A stretch of 64,000 nucleotides of DNA from Tetraselmis striata (Eukaryota; Chlorophyta; Chlorodendrophyceae; Chlorodendrales; Chlorodendraceae): the NCBI GenBank assembly GCA_006384855.1, contig VCJN01000746.1, positions 124,001 to 188,000 on the forward strand. Reading direction: 5' to 3'. The notes below the pieces were generated by a model. The model saw only the letters and a list, made by a program, of their open reading frames with translations, did no database searches and was not told the origin of the DNA. Positions 19,580 to 30,600 of this stretch are shown one piece after another (the first letter of the stretch is position 1; every line of letters begins with the position of its first letter). The translations under genes were made by a program, and so were the position numbers.

Positions 19580-19812
19580 CAGTGCCGGGTATTTTGATGG
19601 CAGTGTTTTAGACGGTGATCCAACAGTGTTGGAAATTCCGTCACTAGCCTTCAATTAGTCTTGCGAAATGCTTCGGCAATTTGCTTGATGACTATAACGG
19701 AGCGTCGCCTACCCAGGGCTTTCCGTAACTGGATTGCTGCCTAAACGGCCGTCGTAGAGACGCTGCAAGGGTTTCACTGGTGCCAGTCCTGTCTCGGGGG
19801 CGAAAAAAAACC
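19580..19812 (+). repeat. A-tailed dispersed repeat, copy 2 (longest forward copy)
   Basis: Runs from AGTGCCGGGTATTTTGATGG through GATGACTATAACGGAGCG and GGGTTTCACTGGTGCCAGTC to an A-run near 19805-19812. It serves as the uninterrupted reference for the copy split by the 4.39 kb element. The reverse copy at 54027-54274 covers the same full length. Confidence 0.8.
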
Positions 19813-20019
19813 AAAAACACCACGCGCCGTCACCGCCGCAAGCAGTCGCTACAGGTAGCCGCGAGCCACAGCAAGCGGTTTCAAAACAATATTCATGGAT
19901 AGATACCGCGCCAATTTACTACTACCGATTTACGTGCCTGCGCAATCCGCCTTACGCGGAAAGCGCTACTCGCTATGAGTACGAGGAATGTACTCGCAAT
20001 TCGTATACGAGTAGGAGGG

Positions 20020-21291: not shown

Positions 21292-22216
21292 GTTGGGCGG
21301 AACTCCAAATGGAAGAGTTCCGTTCCGGCGGAACTGAATTCCGCGGAATTCCGAGGAATTCAGTTCCGCCGGAACGAAACCACGGAATTCCGTTCAGTTC
21401 CGCCGGAACTGCTCAGTTCCGCCGGAACGGAACCGCGGAATTCCGTTCAGTTCCGCCGAAACTAATCAGTTCCGCCGGAACGGGAACATAGAATTGCGCC
21501 GGAACACACTAGTTCCGCCGGAACTGGACGGAATTCCGCCGGATCCATGGCCGGAGCTGTTTGTGCTCCGCAGGATCGGCTGTATATGCTTGTTCATTCT
21601 TGTACTGTATATCTGTTGAGCATGCATGGGTATTATGCTGAGTATAGTGCCCTGAGTTTCGCGTCGGGCGGACGAGCCGGCACTGGCGGGCGTGAGGAGG
21701 GGGTGTCCGCTGGCCCGGGCGGCACGGCGTGGCGGCGTCACTAAGTCATCGGCGGCATCACTGCCGTTAGTGGCGGCGGGATCCTTCTCTACGTCGCCTT
21801 CCGCTTCCTCTTAATCCATAGGCACCTACGTCCTATTCCGCCTCCTCCGGGTCGAGGGAAGGTAATATTGTCGGAAGCCATATATAGCTCATGGTTAGGG
21901 GCGAGGGGTGAGTTAGGTGTCAGCAGCTCTGGTGTGGCATGCCATGTCTTGATGGCGATGACATATCTGCCTCCTTGGCACCTGCGATATTTTTCTCACC
22001 GTATATCACCATATCTCGACGAGCCAACGCGATAGCAACACTACGCTGGAGTCGATTAGGAAAAGTTTCGATGTAGTTCCGGGTGGGGGGGGGGGGGGGG
22101 GGGTCAGTTCCACCGGGTTTTTGGGCCAAGTTCCGGCGGAACGGAATTCCGGCGGTTCAGTTCCACCCGGGCCATAACTCCGGAACTCGCCGGAACGGAA
22201 CTGAGTTCCGCCCAAC
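21292..22216. mobile_element. 925-bp element with inverted ends and arrays of GTTCCGCCGGAAC palindromes
   Basis: The left end GTTGGGCGGAACTC (21292) is matched in inverted orientation by GAGTTCCGCCCAAC (22203-22216). Inside each end are clusters of the self-complementary motif GTTCCGCCGGAAC and GGAATTCCG variants: about 21315-21545 on the left and 22105-22200 on the right. The centre (about 21545-22080) is unrelated and holds no recognisable transposase. The CAGGGTTGGGC at the left border recalls hAT-type ends, but no clear target duplication was found. Probably a non-autonomous element. Confidence 0.6.
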
Positions 22217-22738: not shown

Positions 22739-22806
22739 TTGGGAAATTCCGTCATTTGGCCTCTAATTAGTCTTGCAGAATGCTTCGGCAATTTGCTTGA
22801 TGACTA
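22739..22806 (+). repeat. A-tailed dispersed repeat, copy 3, 5' half (split by insertion)
   Basis: Reads GAAATTCCGTCATTTGGCCT ... TTTGCTTGATGACTA and stops where the CACCCCTGCAC element begins. The remainder of the same copy resumes at 27198 as TATAATGGAGCG. In the uninterrupted copy at 19580 these two parts are contiguous (GATGACTATAACGGAGCG). Confidence 0.85.
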
Positions 22807-24327
22807 CACCCCTGCACATAAGTTTGGGGTCCCTTTTCGGCAGTCTCAAGACTTCAGAAGTCTAGGGTACCTGAACGTAGGTTATATGAGATGAAACCCT
22901 GGAATCTCAGAGGATTTTATAAAACCTGCATGACGAGTGGCTCAAACCGAAGATTAAAGACCTTTGACTAGGGTGTCACGCTGCACTTGGTGCGTGGATG
23001 GGCGTCGCCTGCAACTGCACCAAAACCAGGGTCGGTATCACGCACACGCCGACGCGCGTGAATAGACAACCAAACGGCGGGATGGCCATGAACGCGTGAG
23101 GAAACACATTGGCGAGGGGCTCGGGTGCATTTGGTTGAGGTGCAGCCGTGTGGGCGGCGGCCAGTACATGTCGCGTTGCGATACTGGCGTGGCATCAGTG
23201 TCGGCCACGCGCAGTAACACCCCCTTCGCTTTAAAACGCTATAACTTCTCAGGGTTTGCTCGGAAAATTGTTTGAAAAATACCACGCGATTGCTCGTTCA
23301 AATCTGCGTCGAAGCCAATCTTTCAAAATCCAAAATACGATTTTTTGGGGCCCCGGAAGAAATCCCCAAAGATGATCATCCAAGTTGCCCCTCACTGCCT
23401 TATGTGCCCACCCATGTCGGGCGCGTGGCTTTGCGCCAAGTGCGTGTCTAAGCCCCATACTCGGCTGTGCGAGAGCGTTATGTGTGTGGATGACCACGAA
23501 TCACCAACACTTGGCATGTGCCGCCTCCTAGCGATACACACATCTACCAGCCAAAATGCCGTTTTGCACAGCATTTTTCAAGGAATTTCATGTTAATTAA
23601 AGTCCACGCCCCTACCGCGCCACCCCGCCCACGAAACGGTGCAACTGGCATTCCACCACGCGCCCCCATAGTAGAGCATTGCCCTACGCCAAGGGGGCCA
23701 TCGAGCGCCTCTCCTACGTGCGTTCGCCACAGAAACAGCAGCATTTTCACCCCAAAATTGCTCCCCATAGTGGCCAACTTGTCGTTGGGGTGTCACGTCG
23801 TGCCTATAGCGACATGCTTTCAGTGGCCTACACGCACGGTGTGTGCAACTTATGCCAAGGGCCGTATCCACCGAGTTTGGTGCGACGAGTGCCGCTATTT
23901 CCATAGGTTTGGACGGTTGGCGCAACCCACATTTTTTTGGCGCCAACGCGTCATGCACTGATTTCGCGTTTTTGAAAGGGCGCCCACAAATGGTCGTGTT
24001 GTCGCGCGGGTGGGTATAAAGCGCGCAATAGGCGTTCGCCCGAACTATTCCCACTATAGTTAGCATGTATGCACATGCAGCCGGCGGTATCCTCGCCCAT
24101 GCATGCGCTTTGCGATCGAAAATGCAAAACCCGGACTTATGTGGAGTTGTGTGCGCCGCACCAAGCGCGCTCGACGAGGTCGCAATAAGGCGTCTTGGGA
24201 CAGTGAGCCCTTTCGAGCCCGTGGCTCGCATGTGGATGCGTCATAGGCATATGCAGCCAGTAGGAACATTGGGGTGATCCAAGCATGCCGTGTCGGCCGT
24301 ATATGGCCGAATGACATTTGGCCAACA
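22807..24327. repeat. Unit 1 of the 1521-bp tandem repeat
   Basis: Starts with the terminal inverted repeat CACCCCTGCACATAAG. Nearly identical to unit 2; differences seen include GATACTGGCG here against GATACTTGCG, and GTCGAAGCC against GTCGAAACC. Where unit 3 ends with AGGGGTGTA this unit continues AGTTGTGTGCGCCGC for about another 172 bp. Confidence 0.95.
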
Positions 24328-25848
24328 CACCCCTGCACATAAGTTTGGGGTCCCTTTTCGGCAGTCTCAAGACTTCAGAAGTCTAGGGTACCTGAACGTA
24401 GGTTATATGAGATGAAACCCTGGAATCTCAGAGGATTTTATAAAACCTGCATGACGAGTGGCTCAAACCGAAGATTAAAGACCTTTGACTAGGGTGTCAC
24501 GCTGCACTTGGTGCGTGGATGGGCGTCGCCTGCAACTGCACCAAAACCAGGGTCGGTATCACGCACACGCCGACGCGCGTGAATAGACAACCAAACGGCG
24601 GGATGGCCATGAACGCGTGAGGAAACACATTGGCGAGGGGCTCGGGTGCATTTGGTTGAGGTGCAGCCGTGTGGGCGGCGGCCAGTACATGTCGCGTTGC
24701 GATACTTGCGTGGCATCAGTGTCGGCCACGCGCAGTAACACCCCCTTCGCTTTAAAACGCTATAACTTCTCAGGGTTTGCTCGGAAAATTGTTTGAAAAA
24801 TACCACGCGATTGCTCGTTCAAATCTGCGTCGAAACCAATCTTTCAAAATCCAAAATACGATTTTTTGGGGCCCCGGAAAAAATCCCCAAAGATGATCAT
24901 CCAAGTTGCCCCTCACTGCCTTATGTGCCCACCCATGTCGGGCGCGTGGCTTTGCGCCAAGTGCGTGTCTAAGCCCCATACTCGGCTGTGCGAGAGCGTT
25001 ATGTGTGTGGATGACCACGAATCACCAACACTTGGCATGTGCCGCCTCCTAGCGATACACACATCTACCAGCCAAAATGCCGTTTTGCACAGCATTTTTC
25101 AAGGAATTTCATGTTAATTAAAGTCCACGCCCCTACCGCGCCACCCCGCCCACGAAACGGTGCAACTGGCATTCCACCACGCGCCCCCATAGTAGAGCAT
25201 TGCCCTACGCCAAGGGGGCCATCGAGCGCCTCTCCTACGTGCGTTCGCCACAGAAACAGCAGCATTTTCACCCCAAAATTGCTCCCCATAGTGGCCAACT
25301 TGTCGTTGGGGTGTCACGTCGTGCCTATAGCGACATGCTTTCAGTGGCCTACACGCACGGTGTGTGCAACTTATGCCAAGGGCCGTATCCACCGAGTTTG
25401 GTGCGACGAGTGCCGCTATTTCCATAGGTTTGGACGGTTGGCGCAACCCACATTTTTTTGGCGCCAACGCGTCATGCACTGATTTCGCGTTTTTGAAAGG
25501 GCGCCCACAAATGGTCGTGTTGTCGCGCGGGTGGGTATAAAGCGCGCAATAGGCGTTCGCCCGAACTATTCCCACTATAGTTAGCATGTATGCACATGCA
25601 GCCGGCGGTATCCTCGCCCATGCATGCGCTTTGCGATCGAAAATGCAAAACCCGGACTTATGTGGAGTTGTGTGCGCCGCACCAAGCGCGCTCGACGAGG
25701 TCGCAATAAGGCGTCTTGGGACAGTGAGCCCTTTCGAGCCCGTGGCTCGCATGTGGATGCGTCATAGGCATATGCAGCCAGTAGGAACATTGGGGTGATC
25801 CAAGCATGCCGTGTCGGCCGTATATGGCCGAATGACATATGGCCAACA
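24328..25848. repeat. Unit 2 of the 1521-bp tandem repeat
   Basis: Exactly the same period (1521 bp). Begins with the TIR motif after GGCCAACA. Carries CGGAAAAAATCCCC where units 1 and 3 have CGGAAGAAATCCCC, and ATGACATATGGCC near its end where unit 1 has ATGACATTTGGCC. Confidence 0.95.
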
Positions 25849-27197
25849 CACCCCTGCACATAAGTTTGGGGTCCCTTTTCGGCAGTCTCAAGACTTCAGA
25901 AGTCTAGGGTACCTGAACGTAGGTTATATGAGATGAAACCCTGGAATCTCAGAGGATTTTATAAAACCTGCATGACGAGTGGCTCAAACCGAAGATTAAA
26001 GACCTTTGACTAGGGTGTCACGCTGCACTTGGTGCGTGGATGGGCGTCGCCTGCAACTGCACCAAAACCAGGGTCGGTATCACGCACACGCCGACGCGCG
26101 TGAATAGACAACCAAACGGCGGGATGGCCATGAACGCGTGAGGAAACACATTGGCGAGGGGCTCGGGTGCATTTGGTTGAGGTGCAGCCGTGTGGGCGGC
26201 GGCCAGTACATGTCGCGTTGCGATACTTGCGTGGCATCAGTGTCGGCCACGCGCAGTAACACCCCCTTCGCTTTAAAACGCTATAACTTCTCAGGGTTTG
26301 CTCGGAAAATTGTTTGAAAAATACCACGCGATTGCTCGTTCAAATCTGCGTCGAAGCCAATCTTTCAAAATCCAAAATACGATTTTTTGGGGCCCCGGAA
26401 GAAATCCCCAAAGATGATCATCCAAGTTGCCCCTCACTGCCTTATGTGCCCACCCATGTCGGGCGCGTGGCTTTGCGCCAAGTGCGTGTCTAAGCCCCAT
26501 ACTCGGCTGTGCGAGAGCGTTATGTGTGTGGATGACCACGAATCACCAACACTTGGCATGTGCCGCCTCCTAGCGATACACACATCTACCAGCCAAAATG
26601 CCGTTTTGCACAGCATTTTTCAAGGAATTTCATATTAATTAAAGTCCACGCCCCTACCGCGCCACCCCGCCCACGAAACGGTGCAACTGGCATTCCACCA
26701 CGCGCCCCCATAGTAGAGCATTGCCCTACGCCAAGGGGGCCATCGAGCGCCTCTCCTACGTGCGTTCGCCACAGAAACAGCAGCATTTTCACCCCAAAAT
26801 TGCTCCCCATAGTGGCCAACTTGTCGTTGGGGTGTCACGTCGTGCCTATAGCGACATGCTTTCAGTGGCCTACACGCACGGTGTGTATGTGCAACTTATG
26901 CCAAGGGCCGTATCCACCGAGTTTGGTGCGACGAGTGCCGCTATTTCCATAGGTTTGGACGGTTGGCGCAACCCACAATTTTTTGGCGCCAACGCGTCAT
27001 GCACTGATTTCGCGTTTTTGAAAGGGCGCCCACAAATGGTCGCGTTGTTGCGCGGGTGGTTATAAAGCGCACAGTAGGCGTTCGCCCGAACTATTCCCAC
27101 TGTAGTTAGCATGTATGCACATGCAGCCGGCGGTATCCTCGCCCATGCATGCGCTTTGCGATCGAAAATGCAAAACCCGGACTTATGTGGAGGGGTG
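25849..27197. repeat. Unit 3 of the tandem repeat, shortened and with diverged 3' third
   Basis: 1349 bp long. From about 26885 it departs from units 1-2: an extra TATG (GTGTGTATGTGCAAC), CACAATTTTTT for CACATTTTTTT, GTCGCGTTGTTGCG for GTCGTGTTGTCGCG, GCGCACAGTAGG for GCGCGCAATAGG. It ends with the intact right TIR (ACTTATGTGGAGGGGTG), which the inner units lack. Confidence 0.93.
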
Positions 27198-27316
27198 TAT
27201 AATGGAGCGTCGCCTACCCAGGGCTTTCCATAACTGGATTGCTGCCTATACGGCCGTCGTAGTAGAGACGCTGCAAGGGTTTCACTGGTGCCAGTCCTGT
27301 CCCGGGGACGAAAAAA
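27198..27316 (+). repeat. A-tailed dispersed repeat, copy 3, 3' half
   Basis: TATAATGGAGCGTCGCC through CCAGTCCTGTCCCGGGG to an A-rich end at about 27310-27316. Continuation of the copy begun at 22739. Its end lies about 300 bp upstream of the YTH gene start codon. Confidence 0.85.
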
Positions 27317-27611
27317 AGACAAAACCAAACCCATCACCGGCTGCACCGCCGCCGGCACTGCGCGGCGCAGACACGGGCATTCTCTCGTCTCGGGCGCGCG
27401 ACACACCAGTGCCCAGCCACGACCAGTAACCCCTCACCAGTACCCTCTGCCATCACTATTTACTAGCTGCACCAGCCACCAACTGGCAGGCCGAGTAGCT
27501 TAGCTTCGGACAACTGGACTGCACGCTCCGGTGCCGGAATCCGCCGAAGGGCCCCTGTCCCCTCTCCAGCTGCCGGGCGCCGCCTCCGCCGTGTAGCAGC
27601 GCAGCGACGCG

Positions 27612-30600
27612 ATGGATCGGCAAGAGAGCGAGAACCTTTTGGGGGAGATGATGGGCGACGAGGAGGGGGAGGGGAGCGAGGGGGTGCCTGAGGAGCGTAT
27701 GGCGGATCAGGAAGAGGAGGAAAATAAGGCGCCAGCCCAGGAGCAGGAGTCGGAGAAGGAGGAGGCGGAGCAGGCAGGGGATGAGGCGGATGCTCAGGGC
27801 GAGGAGGCGGAGGATGGGGGCCAGTCTGAGGAGCGCGAGGCGGTGGAGTCTGGGGGCTCGGGAGAGGAGCAGGAGGAGAAAGATGGCTCGAAGGCAGACC
27901 TCGAGGAGGCGGAGGCGGTAGGGGGGCACGGCGCTGCGGAGGGCGGCAGCGACTCGGAGGGCAGCCAGCCTGAGGACGCTATGGAGGAGAAGAAAGGGGG
28001 CGATGGCGACGACAGCGGGCGCGAGGAGGGGGGCGCCAAGTCTGAGGAGGGTGCCATGGAGGCGGAGGGCGGCGGGGAGGGTAGCGGGCGCGAGGAGGGG
28101 GGCGCCGAGTCGGAGAAGGATGCCGTGGAGGCGGAGGGCGGCGGAGAGGGTAGCGGGTCGGAGGGCGGCCAGTCAGAGAAGGGCGCCATGGAGGCGGAGG
28201 GCGGCGAGGAGGGCAGCGGGTCGGAGGGCGGCCAGTCGGAGGAGGGCGCCATGGAGGCGGAGGGCGGCGAGGAGGGCAGCGGGTCGGAGGGCGGCCAGTC
28301 GGAGGAGGACGCCATGGAGGCGGAGGGCGGCGGGTCGGAGGGGCGGGGTGCCATCTCCGGCAACGACAGCGGAGCGGACGATTTTGATGTGGACCTGGGC
28401 GGCGGCGACTCGGGCGGTGAGGAGGAGAACGCGGATTGGGAGACGGCGAAGGCGGAGGAGGGCGAGGAGGACGAGGGCGAGCCAGGTGAGTTCCATCAGG
28501 CAGATGGCACCCCCCCCCCCCCCCTCTTCCCCCCACTCCACCCTCCCCATCTTCCCGCTCACCGCCACCCAACGGACACTATCTCACCTCACATTCTGCC
28601 GACGCACCCAGACGGCAACGAGCTCTTCCGCATGCTCAGCATGGACGGCAACGAGGACTTTGCCGAGACACCGCGCGCGCGAGAGGAGAAGGACGGCAGC
28701 GACGGTGAGGGGGCGGAGAAGGAGGAGGGCGGCGAGGAGCGGCGTGATCGGGAGGGGGACGGCGGTGATGGGAAGGGGCAAAAGGAGGAGGAGGGGGGGG
28801 AGGAGGAGGAGGAGGCGACGGAGCCGCTGGTGCACCTCGTGCTGCGCGCCACCAGCGAGGAGGTGGAAAAGTCGGTGGAGAGCGGCGCGTGGGCCGTCAC
28901 GGTGCGCCCTCTGCTCCCCCCCCCCCCCCCCCCCCTACCCCTTACACCTTTCACTTGGCCATTTCTTGTGCAGCCTTTGCCCCCCACTTTCCTACTGACA
29001 AGCCGTGCGTCGGCCACAACCGCCTGCAGGACGCCATTGTGGAGAAGCTAAAGGCCGCATTCCGCTCTGCCACCAAGGTCGACCCCAACCCCTCCCCCCC
29101 CCCCCCCCCCACCGCCTCCCCCTCTCTCCTCTGTCTGCTGGTTTGCCGGTGTCCTCCTCCCCTCCCCTCCCTGCCTTCTCGCCAAACACCTGGCTGCGCG
29201 TGGCATGGAAAAGGCGATGCATCTGCCCTGTGTAGCCGGCTCGCCAGTTGGCGATATTTGATGCATCTGCCCTTGGAGGGCAGGGGGCGCTGGGGTTGGT
29301 GGGCCATTGCGGGGGGGGGGGGGGGGGGGGGGTAAATGGATGTCTAGGGAGGCTGCAATCATACACACGGCGCGAGACTCGCACGCCATCCCCGACCGAT
29401 GCCGTGAACGTGTCGCCGTAGGACTGCGTGTAATCGGACACCGCTGCAGTATCGGTGCCAGAACTATTCACGTGAAGTGCATTCCGCACCACGCTGGACC
29501 TCTGCGCTAGCCACGGGGCATTAGCAGTAGTACCAGTACGACTAAATGCCCCAAAACCATCACCCCATTTAGCCGTGGCGATGTTTTTTGGGGAGGACTC
29601 AGGCAGCTCCACTTGGTGGAGCGGGTGCAACGAGGAGCCCGGGATGACCGCATAGCCGGCCGCCATGCCATGCGCACCGTTGTCTTTTGCAGATTGACGT
29701 GCTCACTCCGTTGCGCTCTCGCTGCGCCCCTCCCCCCCCCTGTTTGCGCGGCAGGTGGTGCTCCTCCTCGCGGACGACGCCTCCTTCCACGGTATCGCCC
29801 ACATGGCCTCCGCGCCCGGCACGGTGGCGCCGCCCGAGTGGGCGGCCGCCTGCGACCCGCCGCGCCGGGAGGCCTTCCAGCTGCGCTACCAGTGCCTCTT
29901 CCAGCTGCCCTTCGAGGTGCCCCCCCCCCCCCCCCCCCTCCCCCCTTTTGGAGGAATCAATGGAGGCAAGCAATCGGATCACGATGTTGGTCTTTAGGTG
30001 CCAATTCACCAGATGCACCAATCCTCACAATTTGCCGTGAAGATCAGGTCAGATCAGATCGCGTCATTCTTCAGATCGTGATGATCTTGGTATTTAGACC
30101 GCCTATATTTCACGGCTCTTGATGTTTGCTTTAAGACTGAATTGGAATTGTAGTTTGACTTGCTCGATGCGTCGTGCATTTAGCCTAGATCAATCGAGGG
30201 AATCAGACCGGATTGTGATTGTGGTCTTGGTCGCCATGGTGCTCTGTTCGCCAGATGCATCCATCAGTAGAACCCCGAAGCACATGCCATCAAGATCAGG
30301 CCGCATCGTGACTGTGTTGTGGGCACCTCTACCGCGATTCTCGATCCTCATGTTGTGACGCTTTATGCAGACCCTTGAAAAGGAGGGGCTATTCGGCACT
30401 ACTCCCCCCCCCCCCCCCCCCCCCCGCTTTCAGCCCTCTGATGCTGTGCGGATCGCTCCTGAAAATTTAAACTTCCCGTCCGCAGGAGGGCCTGCGCAAC
30501 CCGCTGAATGAGGACAAGCCGCTGCGCGAGGACTGCCCCGACGGGCAGCGCCTCCCCGCGGAGCTGGGCGCCTCGCTGTGCGCCGCGCTGGCGGAGGGCG

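Follow-up and report, generated by a model that had tools for sequence, protein, structure and literature searches.

The window analysed here, a 64,000-nucleotide stretch of the green alga Tetraselmis striata (contig VCJN01000746.1, positions 124,001 to 188,000 of the forward strand, assembly GCA_006384855.1), carries at 22807-27197 a nested insertion that we interpret as a non-autonomous trimer of a composite-like "paired-end" Tc1/mariner transposon. We put the probability of this interpretation at roughly 0.85. The repeated unit, R, bears its own terminal inverted repeats (TIRs), and in a sister family a transposase gene, T, lies between R copies. To judge from its sequence, R-T-R is apparently the autonomous form in the sister family, where the direct R copies flank T much as long terminal repeats (LTRs) flank a retroelement.

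The insertion and its empty site

The insertion at 22807-27197 is confirmed. Its outer ends, 22807-22823 on the forward strand and 27181-27197 on the reverse strand, are exact 17-bp copies of CACCCCTSCACATAAGT in inverted orientation, and the target TA is duplicated at 22805-22806 and 27198-27199, so that the boundaries proposed in a preliminary description of this DNA hold at both ends. Allowing up to three mismatches, the window contains six matches to the 17-bp end, against 0.33 expected, and six were reached in none of 100 shuffles. The flanks joined with a single TA align across the junction to 19631-19819 (91%) and 54223-54037 (87%), and partly to 6868-6747 and 54571-54392; thus, the empty site can be reconstructed. 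The intact paralogue that had been pointed out near 19.7 kb reads GATGACTATAACGG at 19687-19700, and copies of the host repeat end in a run of A, such as GGGGGCGAAAAAAAA. Both the insertion into an A-tailed repeat and the polarity that the preliminary description had deduced hold.

A tandem trimer of R units

The same description took the 4.39 kb as one TIR element, which was the wrong unit. The insertion is a tandem trimer of 1.35-kb TIR units with 176-bp linkers, R(1345)-linker(176)-R(1345)-linker(176)-R(1349), with a period of 1521 bp. Every R carries its own inverted ends, the inner ones making up four of the six end matches in the window. The parts are as follows.

22742-22806, forward strand: left part of the host repeat, ending in the target TA (from the flank alignment and the A-tailed copies)
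22807-24151, forward strand: R unit 1, 1345 bp; left TIR 22807-22823 intact, right TIR 24135-24151 mutated, reverse complement CACAACTCCACATAAGT
24152-24327, forward strand: linker 1, 176 bp, occupying the place of the transposase gene in the sister family
24328-25672, forward strand: R unit 2, 1345 bp; left TIR intact, right TIR 25656-25672 mutated as in unit 1
25673-25848, forward strand: linker 2, 176 bp, with one difference from linker 1
25849-27197, forward strand: R unit 3, 1349 bp, with a 4-bp insertion near 26884-26887; both TIRs intact, the right one at 27181-27197
27198-27317, forward strand: duplicated TA (27198-27199), then the remaining right part of the host repeat, which closes with an A-rich end (from the flank alignment)

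The two inner right ends, 24135-24151 and 25656-25672, have a two-base change in common, CACAAC for CACCCC. In the genome searched, the assembly holding the window (224 Mb, 2903 contigs), this mutated end occurs twice, both times in the window. Because it is private to the window and present in two units, the trimer would have formed after the mutation, most simply in place. Unit 2 has the state of unit 3 at unit position 380 and the states of unit 1 from 786 on, a mosaic of the kind that a misaligned crossover joining the first R of a dimer to its last would produce. These sequence patterns suggest that the window array probably grew in place.

No recognisable gene was found in R. The longest stop-free frame is 185 codons in the window family, under the shuffle maximum of 223, and 104 codons in the sister family, under a maximum of 187; the two window open reading frames (ORFs) lying within R have no Pfam match.

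The window copy could be read as a single non-autonomous 4.39-kb TIR transposon with internal repeats, and its outermost ends are indeed intact TIRs with a TA duplication. However, the inner units have TIRs of their own, and copies elsewhere range from one R to arrays with 24 R-linker junctions. This series of array sizes refutes the single element, which we consider highly improbable.

A transposase gene between R copies in a sister family

Contig C221 carries at 348337-352363 two direct R copies, the first of 1347 bp, separated by a 1333-bp region; the whole is flanked by TA and has the same 17-bp ends as the window copy. The two R copies agree at all 1347 positions. T, a 437-codon open frame, starts within the end of the first R and lies mostly in the 1333-bp region. 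Its matches to the Pfam domains HTH_Tnp_Tc3_2 (3.3e-12) and DDE_3 (1.6e-7) are above cut-off, as are those to HTH_28 and HTH_23; it also matches the IS630 model at 6e-25, under the curated cut-off, and Sleeping Beauty 5cr4 at 1.1e-18. The predicted catalytic residues are D208, D312 and E348, with 35 residues separating the last two (DD35E). These matches argue that T is a Tc1/mariner (DD35E) transposase. The one long frame between the repeats thus has domains of the Tc1/mariner type and not a reverse transcriptase or integrase. Apart from T, no stop-free frame in the 1333-bp region is longer than 142 codons, whereas shuffled sequence reached 216; the domain scan covered the T frame.

Matches to T in the genome number at least 108, with 102 of 202 candidates scored; at least 34 span the full length with no internal stop, many of them recurring with a period of 2680. 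R-T junctions number 44, in 16 contigs. The stretch C40:164102-170823 fits R-T-R-T-R in its length, its ends, two T matches and two R-T junctions; both T copies are broken, and of the R copies the first and last were read, which differ at 1 of 1348 positions. The R pair of contig C2880 differs by three substitutions and one gap column over 1296 aligned positions, with a left end one base shorter and the comparison stopping before the far right end. The R copies of C2880 and C40 are 20-21 substitutions from that of C221.

The preliminary description had called the mobilising enzyme unknown and proposed a search for autonomous copies with a DDE transposase. For the window itself the first statement stands, but the search, now done, leads to the R-T-R of C221, where a Tc1/mariner-type gene lies between R copies with identical ends. 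Identity between the two families is about 74% across the outer 121 bp at one side and about 80% across the outer 55 bp at the opposite side. Because of the identical 17-bp ends and the ~74% identity over the outer 121 bp, we infer that the window family would be mobilised by the T of the sister family.

Relatives of T outside this genome were sought in viral and genome contigs, with a pattern-based search that reaches close relatives only and may miss records near the window's genome, and in phages; none was found. Within the genome, the locus L094 (C1728:238800-243300) holds a degenerate T relative with 40% identity, whose direct repeats are partial (52 and 271 bp) and whose ends are imperfect; it is possibly an old relative with the same layout.

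Solo copies and arrays across the genome

The search for other TA-bounded loci with the same ends, also proposed in the preliminary description, has been carried out. The left 17-mer has 627 exact copies in the assembly, and TA followed by the left end occurs at 284 places. The right end followed by TA occurs at 832, a pattern that also catches the left ends of C-variant families. Junctions from the right end of R to the linker number 497. Each listing contributed its first 29 or 30 places, out of 284 to 832, as the loci labelled L below.

Lengths are not constant from locus to locus, because the number of R units varies. When 100 of the 497 R-linker junctions were grouped by contig, 30 groups resulted: 13 with one junction, seven with two, four with three (C553 among them with at least three) and six with four to 24, some groups touching contig ends. 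The largest array among those listed is that of C83, with 24 R-linker junctions in 40 kb. Among 29 left-end loci (of 284), seven run into the linker, 13 are solo R copies with an exact right end, and nine have an inexact or missing right end.

The TA duplication extends to other insertions. Among 27 distinct R copies with both ends exact, at loci picked for a TA on one side, 15 have TA on the opposite side too; the remaining 12 have TG or CA there, and these are inner array junctions. With L001, which stands outside the 27 and has TC on its right flank, TA is present on both sides of 15 of 16 solo copies, all chosen for TA at one end.

Nine loci (L031, L034, L039, L046, L048, L056, L058, L059 and L060) carry the 17-bp end CACCCCTCCACATAAGT around interiors with little or no likeness to the window unit. 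Such dissimilar interiors with an identical 17-bp end suggest that several families may use one enzyme. At L035 (C8:41391-44409), a near-full R is accompanied by the right end of a second R; the two are inverted relative to each other, right end toward right end, with about 1.2 kb between them.

Scars where R is missing

In C83, two linkers adjoin with CTG or CATG between them. A genome-wide search that allowed gaps of 0-14 gave 131 linker-linker junctions in which both linker ends are exact. The 100 junctions listed, in 21 contigs, contain CTG (82), CAG (16), CATG (1) or CCTG (1); none is without extra bases, and C(A/T)G is found in 98. In the sister family, T-T junctions have CAG in 6 of 6 cases, in two contigs. 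At C704:56157-58856 and C164:681-3378 (L093 for part), T genes stand head to tail with a period of about 1336, the R missing and a CAG scar between them.

Since R begins with CA and ends with TG, CATG equals both two-base ends, and C(A/T)G could arise if 2-nt overhangs overlapped by one base, leaving an A-A mismatch. Sleeping Beauty leaves 3-nt scars in which the middle base alternates between A and T, according to the part of that report available (PMC520745). A scar made of TIR-end bases, as found here, is a character of the superfamily, and the scars would record excision events.

The long arrays that fill contigs, such as that of C83, might also be plain satellite DNA with TE (transposable element)-like ends by chance, in which neither arrays nor R ever transposed. 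Against this, outer TIRs with TA occur at many loci, and the window copy has an empty-site paralogue. The TA at both ends of 15 of 16 solos, the C(A/T)G scars and the transposase gene between R copies weigh further against it. The satellite interpretation is largely refuted, and we give it the least credence of the alternatives considered.

Divergence among R copies

The comparison of R copies included those of the left-end loci L061-L089 with an exact right TIR, nine of the 29 being left out. Within six dispersed insertions, R copies differ by 0-4 substitutions; across different insertions of both families, the differences are mostly 20-79. For the window family, the differences within arrays are 0 in C58 (6 pairs), 1-2 in C197, 4 in C40:352573 and 3-12 in the window, whereas representatives of five arrays are 26-79 substitutions apart. 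The C83 array contains two blocks of identical units.

These differences bear on what we consider the main rival, model b in Fig. 5 of Kojima & Bao 2022 (PMC9587614), as given in the part of that article available. An extrachromosomal R-linker or R-T circle would recombine into an old solo R, so that arrays arise in place and never transpose. Such integration yields R-linker-R with the original target-site duplication (TSD) kept, and solos are the commoner form (13 against seven running into the linker, among the 29 left-end loci of 284). However, it predicts complementary patches in the outer R copies, and these differ by 0 substitutions in C221, 1-2 in C197 and 0 in C58. A very young resident R, or later conversion, could mask the expected patches. 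On balance we find circle integration unlikely, yet clearly less so than the satellite or the single element.

A tree of R copies, built by a quick method and with several open forks, excludes C83_L011 as well as arr1_L061, whose locus is that of C40_1. In this tree the window units group together inside a clade of array units, and five solos (L064, L073, L087, L065 and L088) fall among the units of the other array clade. Some solos may therefore have been cut from such arrays, and others would be older or of other descent.

Other features of the window and the genome

A 63-bp tandem repeat of 4.7 copies (28031-28334) lies inside a 479-codon ORF (27612-29051) without a Pfam match, and a 53-bp tandem repeat of 2.3 copies lies at 21360-21483. 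Ten window ORFs compared with Pfam gave no match, and Rfam and tRNA scans of the window found nothing. Elsewhere in the genome, the chlorophyll a/b-binding family has at least 63 matches. The locus L096 matches solved light-harvesting chains, namely LHCI-2 (3.9e-165) and chloroplast chlorophyll a-b binding proteins (2e-132), in keeping with a green-lineage host, most likely an alga. The pherophorin family PF12499, regarded as specific to volvocine algae, had no match, but no control gave a signal either, and this negative carries no weight for placing the host.

Discussion

We propose that the transposase would cut at the left end of one R and at a right end belonging either to that R or to one further along; a solo R, R-T-R or a longer array could then each transpose as a unit into a TA site. 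Arrays would be made, lengthened, shortened and homogenised by unequal exchange among direct R copies, and such exchange in place may have taken the window copy from dimer to trimer. A piece excised from a homogenised array would start with identical terminal R copies, giving an LTR-like look without reverse transcription. Excision of R alone would leave T or the linker together with a scar, with the arrays serving as a reservoir.

Several observations weigh against this interpretation. A single crossover does not account for unit positions 508 and 553, at which units 1 and 3 of the window carry G but unit 2 has the A seen in the other arrays of the comparison. In the window's own family, no T turned up between R copies. 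The linker was tried as a remnant of T and rejected, since the best local alignments of its 176 bp with T are short and weak; it may not be one. Two T copies show six coding differences, two synonymous and four not, so that no purifying selection is evident. Scars are copied along with the arrays, so that far fewer than 100 independent events lie behind the junctions listed, and the count comprises junctions that kept both exact linker ends. Some arrays are close to each other: the first unit of L071 is four substitutions from the C58 units and four from L067, and L068 is eight from L071 and 8-10 from units of other arrays. The C83 array is heterogeneous, with a mean of 26 and a maximum of 113 substitutions, the odd row C83_L011 included. 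Finally, the many remaining solos branch outside both array clades, and so not all solos were cut from the arrays sampled.

By its domains, DD35E spacing, TA target, short TIRs and 3-nt scar with A or T in the middle, the system resembles IS630-Tc1-mariner elements such as Sleeping Beauty and Tc1. The TA TSD, a predicted DDE/D spacing within about 34-41 residues and an N-terminal helix-turn-helix all agree with that superfamily. Ordinary members carry the gene inside one TIR pair. Here, in contrast, T sits between two R units, each with its own pair, and outside the pair of each.

The closest layout found is that of KolobokP (Kojima & Bao 2022, PMC9587614). In the part of that article available, an internal region lies between long terminal direct repeats (LTDRs) with their own short TIRs. 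The elements also occur as solo repeats and as multimers of the form (LTDR-INT)n-LTDR, INT being the internal region, and INT-INT junctions are explained by excision of an LTDR or a monomer. The Tetraselmis families share the direct repeats with their own TIRs around an internal region (complete in C221, in part in C2880), as well as solos, multimers and internal-internal junctions. KolobokP belongs to the Kolobok superfamily, with TSDs of 3-4 or 4-5 bp and LTDRs of ~450 or 660 bp, in seven animal phyla. The elements described here differ in their Tc1/mariner DD35E transposase, TA target, R of 1.35 kb and green-lineage genome; no 3-5-bp TSD was seen, TA being found at the window copy and at 15 of 16 solos. 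KolobokP also encodes a His-Me finger nuclease, and its authors speculate that a homing endonuclease induces multimers. Here, one gene is seen in the 1333-bp internal region, whose short frames fall outside the domain scan. The scars add TIR-end bases, unlike the flank deletions of KolobokP. No Kolobok transposase appears by name among the Pfam and NCBIfam matches of T, which are of Tc1/mariner, IS630 and general HTH (helix-turn-helix) types. The architecture is that of KolobokP and the transposase appears to be Tc1/mariner, probably by convergence.

Other systems, in part summarised in the same article (PMC9587614), share parts of the layout. Like IS26-type pseudo-composite transposons and translocatable units, the arrays have direct repeats of a TIR unit, an intervening segment and growth by whole units. 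As in LTR retrotransposons and TRIM (terminal-repeat retrotransposon in miniature) arrays, there are near-identical terminal direct repeats, solos and tandem sharing of the repeat. The IS26 transposase, however, lies inside the repeated unit, whereas R is without a recognisable gene. In contrast to LTR retrotransposons, the gene found between the repeats here is a DDE transposase of the Tc1/mariner type, each repeat bears TIRs, and there are excision scars.

The authors of KolobokP regard it as unlike any other DNA transposon (PMC9587614, available part), and the available parts of PMC8226300 and PMC12477816 describe no Tc1/mariner element with long terminal direct repeats. No such description was found in the literature searched, outside which lie Repbase reports, preprints and most subscription journals. 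The layout thus has one earlier report that we found, in an unrelated animal transposon family, and an earlier Tc1/mariner description is possible. Whether the Tetraselmis elements represent a second, independent origin of an LTR-like "paired-end" DNA transposon, by Tc1/mariner in a green-lineage host and with tandem arrays as the reproducing form, we regard as evenly balanced. Under the same reading, unequal exchange would do the copying and homogenising, the transposase would only cut out one or more R, and multimers would need no homing endonuclease.

If this is true, an LTR-like layout can arise more than once among DNA transposons, and an own nuclease is not required for multimers. The arrays would offer a concrete route from transposon to satellite DNA, in which scars record the loss of units. 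The at least 34 full-length, uninterrupted T frames would provide material for testing which pairs of R ends are cut.

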